Made by a program: the position numbers and the translations under genes. A stretch of DNA of 64,000 bases, taken from Deferrivibrio essentukiensis. Lineage in GTDB: Bacteria > Chrysiogenota > Deferribacteres > Deferribacterales > Deferrivibrionaceae. Of the stretch, positions 56,095-60,229 are shown piece after piece. Numbering within the stretch: the stretch's first letter is position 1; every line of letters starts with the position of its first letter. The notes under the pieces were generated by a model. That model had not been told where the DNA came from and ran no database searches. It saw only the letters and a list, made by a program, of their open reading frames with translations. The stretch spans positions 1-64,000 of the forward strand of contig NZ_JAJAFU010000007.1 in NCBI RefSeq assembly GCF_020480685.1. Reading direction: 5' to 3'.

Positions 56095-56637
56095 ATGGAT
56101 AGTCACTGGAAAAAATTAAATACACACAGAGAGTATCTTGATAGGGTACTCTCTGTGGAACATCGTGAGTTTTATTTTGCCAAAGAAAATGCCTCAATGA
56201 ACTTTACTGTGGTAAATACTAATGATTGGGTTACCATTATTCCCATAACACTTGATGATAAATTTGTTTTGGTGAAGCAGTTTAGAGTAGGCACTGAAGA
56301 AACTACATATGAATTTCCTGGCGGTGCCGTTAATAAAGGTGAAGATAAATTAAAAGCGGCTCTCAGAGAATTGAGAGAGGAGACCGGCATTGAACCAATA
56401 GAGATAAAACTATTAGGTGAGATTCATCCTAACCCTGCCTTTATGAGTAACAAAGCTTATGTCTATCTTGCAAAGGGGTGTGAGTTTAAATATGATTTGA
56501 ATTTGGATATGTTTGAGGATATTGAATTGATAACACTGACTAAAAATGAATTGGAAGATTATATAAGAAGTGGTATGATAAAGCATAGCATAGTATTGGC
56601 TGCTTATTCTTTATTTTTGGTTGATAACAAAGTTTGA
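56095..56637 (+). CDS. Nudix hydrolase, ADP-ribose pyrophosphatase-like
   Basis: This 180-residue protein has a complete Nudix box: GGAVNKGEDKLKAAL followed by RELREETGI, near residues 77-101. The N-terminal FTVVNTNDWVTIIPIT and the QFRVGTEETTYEFPGG segment are like ADP-ribose pyrophosphatases. RBS is weak. It ends nine bases before the permease gene. Confidence 0.9.
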   Translation: MDSHWKKLNTHREYLDRVLSVEHREFYFAKENASMNFTVVNTNDWVTIIPITLDDKFVLVKQFRVGTEETTYEFPGGAVNKGEDKLKAALRELREETGIEPIEIKLLGEIHPNPAFMSNKAYVYLAKGCEFKYDLNLDMFEDIELITLTKNELEDYIRSGMIKHSIVLAAYSLFLVDNKV

Positions 56638-56645
56638 GGTAGTTT

Positions 56646-57443
56646 ATTTACCGAGAAATTAAAAAATATAAAATTTACTTTATAGATTTCTTCCTTATAG
56701 GATTTATAATAGTATCATCATTTTTACTGTTAAGGAATCTATCTGAAAACCTCGGATATAACTGGCAATTTTATCGTATTTGGGAATATTTAATAAAAGA
56801 AACCGAAAATGGATATGAATTTGGTATTTTAATAAAAGGTCTCTTTATTACATTGGAAGTATCTGCTATTAGTCTGATTTTATCTTTTATATTTGGACTT
56901 TTCAGTGCACTTTTCAGCATATCAAACTCTTTTATGTTGAAATTTTTATCTACTTTCTATGTGGAGACTATAAGAAATACTCCGTTATTGATTCAAATAT
57001 TTTTTAATTACTTTGTAATTTCACCTATTTTTGATATATCGCCGTTTGTGACAGCAATACTTACACTAAGCCTATTTGAGGGGGCGTATGCATCTGAAAT
57101 TATAAGAGGCGGGATAAACTCTATCCCTTTGGGACAGTATGAAGCAGCGAGAAGTCTGGGGTTAACTGAATATCAAATGTACCGGTTTATTGTTTTGCCC
57201 CAGGCATTAAAAAATGTGGCACCCCCCCTTGCAAGTCAAGGTATCTCTCTTATTAAAGATTCATCTCTTATAAGTACGATTTCTGTTTATGAGTTGACAC
57301 TTTATGGGCAAGCAATAGTTAGTGAGACATTCTTGAGCTTTGAAGTATGGTTTACAATTGCTTTGATATATCTTATAATAAATGTGATATTGTCGGCTGG
57401 GATTAAAATATTTTCAAAAAAAGTCGCAAGGAGTGCAATATGA
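56646..57443 (+). CDS. Polar amino-acid ABC transporter permease with probable ATT start
   Basis: This about 265-residue inner-membrane protein has the ABC permease EAA loop EAARSLGLTEYQMYRF and SLIKDSSLISTISVYELT. The frame is open back to 56643 without any ATG, GTG or TTG until 56853, which would cut away the first helix. GAGG at 56636-56639 lies six bases before an ATT at 56646. The upstream residues (GYNWQFYRIWEYLI and GILIKGLFITLE) align with the start of the paralogous permease at 58259, so translation almost surely begins near 56646. Confidence 0.8.
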   Translation: MYREIKKYKIYFIDFFLIGFIIVSSFLLLRNLSENLGYNWQFYRIWEYLIKETENGYEFGILIKGLFITLEVSAISLILSFIFGLFSALFSISNSFMLKFLSTFYVETIRNTPLLIQIFFNYFVISPIFDISPFVTAILTLSLFEGAYASEIIRGGINSIPLGQYEAARSLGLTEYQMYRFIVLPQALKNVAPPLASQGISLIKDSSLISTISVYELTLYGQAIVSETFLSFEVWFTIALIYLIINVILSAGIKIFSKKVARSAI

Positions 57444-58258
57444 AAAAACTGTTAAGCATTATTATTGTATTACTAATTATGTTTGGAGCAAGTGCTTATG
57501 CTGACTCTGTAAGAGAAAATCTTACAAAAGAGAGCACAGTAGAGAAGATTTTAAAAAGAGGGTATATTAAGGTAGGGATGTCTACTTTTGTACCATGGGC
57601 GATGCAGGATAAAAATGGAAATCTAATCGGCTTTGAAATTGATGTGGCCAAAAGACTGGCTCAGGACATGGGGGTAAAAGTTGAATTTATTCCTACTAAA
57701 TGGTCAGGAATTATTCCTGCTCTTTTGACAGGTAAGTATGATGTGATTATCGGAGGTATGGGAATTACGCCTGAAAGGAATAAAAAAGTCAATTTTACTA
57801 TCCCTTACGATTACTCAGGTATGTCTATCGTAGCACATAAGAAAAAGGCTGAGGGCTTTAATAAATTGGAAGATTTTAATAAAAATGATGTTGTTATTGC
57901 TGTGAGAATCGGCACTACTGCTGAAAGCGCAGTCAAAAAATATTTGCCTAATGCCAAGCTTAAACTTTTTGACGATGAATCACAAGCAATTCAAGAGCTT
58001 TTGACAGGTCGCGTGCATGCTGTAGTTGCTTCTGCTCCAATGCCTGCATTTCAAGCGATAGAGCATAGTGATAAACTTTTTCTCCCGTTTAAGGAAACAT
58101 TTACAAAAGAGCCTATTGCATTTGCAATAAGAAAGGGTGATGTGGATACTTTAAATTATTTCAACAGCTGGATTACAATTGTAGAGTCCGAAGGTTGGCT
58201 TAAAGAGCGAAAAGATTATTGGTTTAACTCAAAAGATTGGGAGAAACTTTTGAAATAA
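57440..58258 (+). CDS. Amino-acid ABC transporter substrate-binding protein
   Basis: This 272-residue periplasmic protein has a signal peptide ending near SAYADS (residue 22). The family-3 solute-binding features GYIKVGMSTFVPWAMQDKNG, GFEIDVAKRLA and GKYDVIIGGMGITPER are present. It overlaps the first permease gene by four bases. Ligand is probably a polar amino acid such as glutamine or glutamate. Confidence 0.9.
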   Translation: MKKLLSIIIVLLIMFGASAYADSVRENLTKESTVEKILKRGYIKVGMSTFVPWAMQDKNGNLIGFEIDVAKRLAQDMGVKVEFIPTKWSGIIPALLTGKYDVIIGGMGITPERNKKVNFTIPYDYSGMSIVAHKKKAEGFNKLEDFNKNDVVIAVRIGTTAESAVKKYLPNAKLKLFDDESQAIQELLTGRVHAVVASAPMPAFQAIEHSDKLFLPFKETFTKEPIAFAIRKGDVDTLNYFNSWITIVESEGWLKERKDYWFNSKDWEKLLK

Positions 58259-59128
58259 ATGAAAAAAGTTAGCTTTAAAAGGATAGACATATTGGTATTG
58301 TCTATCCTTATACTTATTGTTTTTTATATTTTTTATAGAATTAATATCTATATAGACTACCACTGGCAATGGCATAGGGTAGTCGATTATATAATTAATA
58401 AAGATGAAAAAGGATACCATTTTGGTCTTTTGTCTAAGGGGTTATTTTATACTCTAAAACTAAGTATGTGGTCTATTATTTTTAGTATTATTTTAGGATT
58501 TATATTTGGTACTTTCAGGTCATTTAAACGACCTTTTTTCAGGTTTGGTTCTTTGATATATGTTGAGTTAAATAGAAATATCCCACCTTTAATTCTGATT
58601 TTTATATTTTATTTTTTTATAAGTGATCAAATTTTCACACTGTTTGAAGTTGAGTATTTCATAAGAAATTTGGGAAAAACAGCTCGTGAAATAATAACAA
58701 TATTTTTTGCTCCGCCAAATTTGATATCATCCTTTTTTGCCGGGGTATTGGCACTTTCAGTATTTGAAAGTGCTTATATAGCTGAAATTGTTAAGGCAGG
58801 TATTGAATCTGTTGATGTAGGACAAAAGGAGGCTGCCAAAGCATTGGGTTTATCAAAATATCAAATTTTAAGATATGTAACTATTCCGCAGGCATCCAAG
58901 GTAATAATTCCTCCCCTTAGTAACCAGTGTATTTCAACAATAAAAGATTCTTCAATTGTCTCTGTAATAGCTATCCCTGAGCTTACATTTCAGGGCATGG
59001 AGATGATGTCAGCAACCTATTTGTCATACGAGACTTGGATTACTGTGACTTTTTTTTATTTTATTCTTACCTTTTCCCTTTCTATGCTGAATAAGAAAAT
59101 TGAAAGGACTTATACTCTTAATTTCTGA
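58259..59128 (+). CDS. Polar amino-acid ABC transporter permease
   Basis: This 289-residue membrane protein has an N-terminal helix, a loop DYHWQWHRVVDYII, then five helices with EAAKALGLSKYQILRY and STIKDSSIVSVIAIPEL. It is the partner of the permease at 56646. It begins right after the binding-protein stop. No ATPase gene follows; pstS is next. Confidence 0.9.
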   Translation: MKKVSFKRIDILVLSILILIVFYIFYRINIYIDYHWQWHRVVDYIINKDEKGYHFGLLSKGLFYTLKLSMWSIIFSIILGFIFGTFRSFKRPFFRFGSLIYVELNRNIPPLILIFIFYFFISDQIFTLFEVEYFIRNLGKTAREIITIFFAPPNLISSFFAGVLALSVFESAYIAEIVKAGIESVDVGQKEAAKALGLSKYQILRYVTIPQASKVIIPPLSNQCISTIKDSSIVSVIAIPELTFQGMEMMSATYLSYETWITVTFFYFILTFSLSMLNKKIERTYTLNF

Positions 59129-59221: not shown

Positions 59222-60229
59222 ATGAAAAAAAGCTTGTTAATAGCTCTTGTATTTATGGCTTGCTTGACAGTGATAGGTGTGGCTTCTGCAAGGGATCAGA
59301 TTAGGATAGTTGGCTCCAGTACGGTATACCCTTTTTCGAGTTATGTTGCTGAAGAATTTGGAGCAACAACTAATTTTAAAACCCCTGTGGTTGAATCAAC
59401 AGGTTCAGGTGGCGGTCATAAATTATTTAGTGAAGGGGTAGGGGAGAAAACTCCTGATATAACCAATTCATCAAGAAGAATCAAAGAGAAAGAGTTGAAA
59501 AATAATATTGAAAAAGGGATTGAAACCATTGAAGTTAAAATAGGTTTTGATGGGATAGTTTTGGCTCAAAATAAAGATTCAAGTGATTTAAAACTTTCTA
59601 GAAAAGATATTTTGCTTGCTGTTGCAGAAGAAGTGCCGGCAAATGGTAAGCTTGTAAAAAACCCTTATAAGTATTGGAATGAAATTAATCCAAATTTGCC
59701 TAAAAGAAAAATTTTGATTTATGGTCCACCTACATCTTCAGGTACAAGAGATGCTTTTGAAGAGTTGGCGCTGGAAGAAGCTTCTAAAAAGATAAAAGAA
59801 TATGGTGGAAAGTATTCAAAAATTAGGACTGATGGAGTCTATGTCCCAGCAGGTGAAAATGATAACTTAATTGTTCAAAGGCTTGTTAAAGATAAAGAAG
59901 CTGTCGGTATATTTGGATACAGTTTCCTTGAAGAAAACAGTGACAGACTAAAAGGTGCTACAGTGGACGGGTATGAGCCAACTTTTGAAAATATATCTTC
60001 CGGAAAATACCCCATATCAAGAAGCCTATATTTTTATGTCAAAAAGAACCACTTAGGCAAAATACCTGGTATTGAGGAGTATGTTGACCTTTTTGTAAGT
60101 GAGAAAATTATTGGCGGTAGGGGAGTTTTAAAAAGGATAGGTCTTATCCCGTTGCCAAAGGCTGACAGGGAAAAAATAAGAGCAGAGTGGAAAAGTAGAA
60201 AAGTATTGACTATAAGTGATATAAAATAA
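59222..60229 (+). CDS. pstS: Phosphate ABC transporter substrate-binding protein
   Basis: This 335-residue periplasmic protein has a signal peptide ending near GVASARDQ. The mature start IRIVGSSTVYPFSSYVAEEF and the phosphate-binding segments ESTGSGGGHKLF and GPPTSSGTRDAFE are typical of the PstS/SphX group. GGAGG precedes the ATG. It is the first gene of pstSCAB. Confidence 0.93.
   Translation: MKKSLLIALVFMACLTVIGVASARDQIRIVGSSTVYPFSSYVAEEFGATTNFKTPVVESTGSGGGHKLFSEGVGEKTPDITNSSRRIKEKELKNNIEKGIETIEVKIGFDGIVLAQNKDSSDLKLSRKDILLAVAEEVPANGKLVKNPYKYWNEINPNLPKRKILIYGPPTSSGTRDAFEELALEEASKKIKEYGGKYSKIRTDGVYVPAGENDNLIVQRLVKDKEAVGIFGYSFLEENSDRLKGATVDGYEPTFENISSGKYPISRSLYFYVKKNHLGKIPGIEEYVDLFVSEKIIGGRGVLKRIGLIPLPKADREKIRAEWKSRKVLTISDIK

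Follow-up and report, generated by a model that had tools for sequence, protein, structure and literature searches.

A probable AUU start codon in an amino-acid permease gene of Deferrivibrio essentukiensis, with near-cognate starts in homologues from two phyla

The DNA analysed here (the window) is the 64,000-nucleotide stretch at positions 1 to 64,000 of contig NZ_JAJAFU010000007.1 of Deferrivibrio essentukiensis. It contains a cassette of ABC importer genes, lying behind a Nudix hydrolase gene on the forward strand. The features of the locus are as follows.

56095–56637 (+): upstream Nudix hydrolase gene (PF00293, 57 bits)
56636–56639 (+): Shine-Dalgarno element GAGG (GAGGT counting the next base), 6 bases 5' of the ATT
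56640–56642 (+): in-frame stop TAG, two codons 5' of the permease ATT
56646–56648 (+): ATT, probable start codon of the permease, kept at the Shine-Dalgarno element in the related genomes G001, G002, G004, G011 and G018
56646–57443 (+): permease subunit 1 of an amino-acid type ABC importer, 265 residues from the ATT (TIGR01726, PF00528)
56853–56855 (+): TTG, the first canonical codon in the permease frame, at residue 70 within the TIGR01726 core; internal, not a start
57440–58258 (+): substrate-binding protein (PF00497, 127.9 bits)
58259–59128 (+): permease subunit 2, ATG start (PF00528, 69 bits; TIGR01726, 55.9 bits)

A preliminary description of this DNA had called the first of the cassette genes an amino-acid permease, and family profiles agree. 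Subunit 1 scores 87.0 bits against TIGR01726 (cut-off 42.2) and 73.9 bits against PF00528 (cut-off 26.4), which makes it an ABC permease of the His/Glu/Gln/Arg/opine (polar amino-acid) type. Among the equivalog profiles that would name a substrate (e.g. GlnP, cystine, EhuC), every match fell below its cut-off. The ATG of the binding-protein gene overlaps the permease stop (ATGA) and has a GGAG upstream. From 56095 to 59128 we saw no ATP-binding subunit for an amino-acid importer. The gene after the cassette, at 59222–60229 (+), resembles a phosphate-binding protein (PstS-like) on inspection of its sequence.

The permease frame (56643–57443, +) begins, from the stop onwards, TAG (56640) TTT ATT (56646) TAC CGA GAA ATT AAA, and the TAG rules out a start further upstream in this frame. 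The two observations that had first drawn attention to the site both hold: GAGG stands six bases before the ATT, at 56636–56639, and there is no ATG, GTG or TTG in the 207 bases from ATT 56646 to TTG 56853. The frame thus combines the absence of a usable canonical codon with an AUH codon (AUU, AUC or AUA) at Shine-Dalgarno distance, as expected of a near-cognate start, and the position is conserved in relatives.

Within the order Deferribacterales, G001 is a single-contig genome of the same genus whose permease shares 95% protein identity with that of the window; it has the same GAGGTAGTTTATTTACC site. G002, also of the genus (74% protein identity), reads GGGGTAGTATATT, with a GGGG element at the same spacing, and an in-frame GTG four codons past its ATT has no Shine-Dalgarno element in range. 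In three genomes of family f3 (G004, G011 and G018; about 50% identity) the site is GGAGTAACAGATT or GGAGTAATAGATT, with a GGAG element at the same spacing to the ATT and no ATG, GTG or TTG nearby; their leaders and upstream gene differ from those of the window. Since G004 and G011 hardly differ, the f3 evidence amounts to about two cases. In f3 the permease lacks five residues at its N-terminus, and the position of the ATT accordingly follows the Shine-Dalgarno element instead of the alignment of the proteins. ATG stands close to this end of the protein in four genomes of f2 and two of f8. The comparison with close relatives proposed in the preliminary description therefore finds either a conserved ATT or an ATG at about the same place.

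These relatives bear on the possibility of an internal start, with the conserved upstream part left untranslated. The next formal candidates are TTG 56853 and ATA 56709, the latter behind an AGGA. As had been anticipated, the TTG would truncate the protein: since it is residue 70, a start there cuts into the TIGR01726 core, which begins at residue 60 (ATT numbering), and a membrane-helix-like stretch at residues 8–26 would be lost. The ATA falls inside this first membrane helix, and G001 has AGGT in place of the AGGA. Comparison of the window with G001 shows changes at 12 third, 5 first and no second positions of the 69 codons that precede the TTG, a pattern that makes them look coding, and the ATG-bearing relatives begin near the ATT position. 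We rejected both codons as starts and consider an internal start very improbable.

The window's genome is a 64-contig draft, in which an error of sequencing or assembly might have turned ATG into ATT; a sequencing error had been named as something that would undo the AUU reading. G001, assembled as a single contig, has the same ATT and leader, and AUH starts are also present in the isolate genomes of Pelovirga terrestris and Desulfuromusa kysingii described below. The relatives refute such an error, to which we give a vanishingly small probability.

The Nudix gene lies close enough to raise another question. Its stop (TGA 56635–56637) is just eight bases before the ATT, in a different frame from the permease, and its 3' end overlaps the GAGG; the permease might accordingly be made as a fusion with the upstream gene, through a frameshift or read-through. 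However, an in-frame stop stands one or two codons 5' of the ATT in all six Deferribacterales that have it (the window, G001, G002, G004, G011 and G018). The upstream gene itself varies by lineage, being Nudix in the window, MurB in f3 and MsrA in Desulfuromonadales. The upstream ORFs of G004 and G011 end about 150 bases off. Relatives with a normal start joined to the Nudix frame had been listed as a second possible refutation; relatives with ATG exist, but none is joined to Nudix. We therefore rejected a fusion, which is extremely improbable. Most of the relatives read share the gene order permease, binding protein, permease, while the upstream gene changes, so the weak-start feature belongs to the permease.

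The leader also offered a candidate RNA structure. A GGUAG/UUACC hairpin enclosing the AUU shows no folding advantage over shuffled sequences (z = 0.41), and G002 does not conserve its sequence, so we rejected hairpin control; folding of the leader gave no indication of a structured regulator.

Beyond the order, the nearest named homologues of the permease are mostly from Desulfobacterota. Outside Desulfuromonadales these mostly start with ATG, whereas many from Desulfuromonadales are without one. Of 136 genomes from the order to which Pelovirga terrestris belongs, 37 had the permease gene; we read the loci of 30 and pooled the named loci with them. One Desulfuromonadales clade comprises 25 distinct permeases, and 22 of these have an AUH codon (ATT 13, ATC 8, ATA 1) at one place, 39–40 codons before a conserved Tyr; the exceptions have ATG (2) or TTG (1). 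At positions 40 to 36 before this Tyr, ATG, GTG and TTG are absent from all 25. Pelovirga, for instance, has AAGGAGGTTAGCC-ATC and Desulfuromusa kysingii has TTGGAGATAATCCG-ATT; the two isolate genomes among the 22 cases are those of Pelovirga terrestris and Desulfuromusa kysingii. Many of the clade's permeases have an in-frame stop just a few codons further upstream. As a point against the AUH reading, several Desulfuromonadales have NTG codons that a gene caller would pick. A quickly built, long-branched tree of 104 permeases places AUH in families f1 and f3 and in the Desulfuromonadales clade, and implies at least four changes between ATG and AUH. The AUH start of the permease is thus conserved across two bacterial phyla, and it is the depth of this conservation that is new.

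Chance placement of an AUH codon is a poor match for the site. In G001, an in-frame ATT, ATC or ATA with a Shine-Dalgarno match of at least 4 at 5–8 nt accounts for 0.6% of internal codons, and the permease is the sole ORF, among 63 picked in the window, to have an AUH codon with a Shine-Dalgarno site ahead of its first NTG. Together with the recurrence in relatives, this makes the permease site, judged from its sequence, more than chance.

Near-cognate starts are also in use elsewhere in the order. In 28 of its genomes (L032–L059), infC starts mostly with ATA and in a few cases with ATC, at a GGAGG and with no ATG, GTG or TTG at the site, the start being clear outside a few loci of family f7, where the frames are longer. 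In G000 the infC site is GGAGGTGAGTT-ATA, with the six-base spacing seen at the permease, whose own Shine-Dalgarno match of 4–5 bases is weaker than that of infC. The stretches of G001 that we examined did not contain its 16S 3' end, which carries the anti-Shine-Dalgarno sequence. Deferribacterales thus use near-cognate starts, and a non-canonical start of infC, the mark to be expected where genes are under IF3 control, is present in the lineage. Autocontrol of infC by IF3 of the E. coli type is plausible in this order. Given the conserved site in relatives and the use of near-cognate starts in infC, translation of the permease very likely starts at AUU 56646. The start proposed from the window alone is now joined by the identical ATT site in G001, ATT in a second family, ATG in sister lineages and AUH in the Desulfuromonadales clade.

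How might such a start act? The GAGG element would place the 30S subunit, and initiator fMet-tRNA would read the AUU with a third-position mismatch. Judging from other genes, IF3 would reject a codon of this kind; the AUU would consequently initiate weakly and little permease subunit 1 would be made, with the yield expected to rise when IF3 is limiting. Non-canonical starts are repressed by IF3 (PMC5472188), AUU and AUA starts run at about 10% of the AUG level in S. aureus in poor medium (PMC13009471), and translation in Listeria follows the order ATG > ATA > ATT (PMC13068326). From the layout of the cassette, the AUU would limit the membrane subunit and not the binding protein: the latter is served by an ATG and a GGAG of its own, and may escape this limit. 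A likely benefit, speculatively, would be control over the amount of the membrane subunit. We infer that discrimination by IF3, limiting permease synthesis, is the best-supported mechanism, and we regard the full account, a start at AUU 56646 with IF3-limited and therefore low permease synthesis, as probable.

The main rival to dosage control is drift. The AUU would then be the start, but a tolerated one, an ATG decayed to ATT in a gene that requires little expression, and with no regulatory value. A single-base change suffices for this, several relatives have ATG, and start codons vary along lineages in published work (PMC13068326). Under drift, however, a return to ATG or fixation on one codon would be expected, whereas 22 of the 25 permeases of the Desulfuromonadales clade keep AUH, shifting among ATT, ATC and ATA and rarely to ATG, and AUH is found in f1 and f3 as well. 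We therefore consider drift possible but rather unlikely. That a weak start is kept in relatives of two phyla suggests instead, as far as sequence comparison can tell, that cells may make this permease slowly on purpose.

The best-known starts of this type are those of infC: AUU in E. coli, with autocontrol by IF3, AUC in Streptomyces and AUA in S. aureus. The permease resembles infC in having a near-cognate AUH start at a Shine-Dalgarno element, and differs in the shorter match of that element; since its product is not IF3, it would have no self-feedback. Among genes other than infC, Streptomyces sigR also has a non-canonical start, which sets stoichiometry in its operon; there the codon is GTC, the product is a sigma factor and repression by IF3 is experimental, whereas for the permease we would transfer it from other genes (PMC5472188). 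Two S. aureus genes outside infC, cvfC1 with AUU and ccpN with an AUA that B. subtilis shares, resemble the permease in having conserved AUH starts found with the help of relatives; these starts were shown by ribosome profiling and have extended Shine-Dalgarno motifs, and the genes encode a small protein and a repressor and not a transporter (PMC13009471). E. coli pcnB and Borrelia burgdorferi bbe22, the latter truncated in its database annotation, are further protein-coding genes with AUU starts, though they are different genes from the permease (PMC13398362). AUU, AUC and AUA starts are thus already known from infC, pcnB, ccpN, cvfC1, Borrelia bbe22 and Listeria rnhC, and the earlier statement that AUU is known mainly from infC has become too narrow now that these further conserved cases are published. 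In a partial literature search we found no report that fliP or a transporter permease starts with AUU.

To our knowledge, few near-cognate starts have been experimentally characterised in bacteria. Across two phyla, 28 of the loci read keep AUU, AUC or AUA for the permease, and sister cases have an ATG in roughly that position. Such AUH/ATG sister pairs are natural test material for two questions: whether weak starts are selected for dosage, and whether IF3 governs genes beyond its own. There is also a practical side, as callers that seek only ATG, GTG and TTG will truncate or miss genes with near-cognate starts, and the database N-termini of the permease and fliP proteins may need correction.

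When G001 was surveyed for AUH codons not preceded by a usable start, about five of roughly 2,000 ORFs were credible cases; the survey used a home-made coding model that misses cases and placed the permease itself below its first threshold. Among the cases are infC (ATA), the permease (ATT), fliP (ATT) and a response regulator (ATT); a DUF1786 or DUF2062 gene is a less certain addition. At fliP, the start is ATT or ATC in families f1, f2, f3, f6 and f8 of the order (e.g. GGTGGAAAAATTAAAAAG, GGAGAAACTGAAATCAATAAA), and ATG, GTG and TTG are absent at the Shine-Dalgarno site; the loci are C1:1289149–1289889 in G001 (L178), L179 in G000, and L180–L193. Conceivably, though we think it doubtful, the two phyla keep a small set of genes other than infC (the permease, and in Deferribacterales fliP) on AUH for IF3-responsive translation. 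If true, these membrane parts for import and export would form a set tuned by IF3.

The response-regulator gene has its ATT start in G001 (C1:748275–748910, −; L213) and in G000 (L214), and ATG stands at the same codon in two f8 relatives (L215, L216). Two further genes of G001 lack a canonical start near the N-terminus and have an uncertain ATA candidate, namely the DUF1786 gene (C1:1116167–1117186, −; L204) and the DUF2062 gene (C1:1574701–1575135, +); an AUA start is uncertain for DUF1786, as its f3 relatives begin with ATG a few residues further in. Two other ORFs of G001, C1:596381–597358 (−) and 913592–914581 (+), carry a strong coding signal but have no start codon at their beginning, and are possible frameshifts or pseudogenes. 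Finally, a peroxiredoxin-like ORF of G001 (C1:2215381–2216022, −; L170) has an in-frame TGA at the FVxATEL active-site position, comparable to selenocysteine peroxiredoxins.
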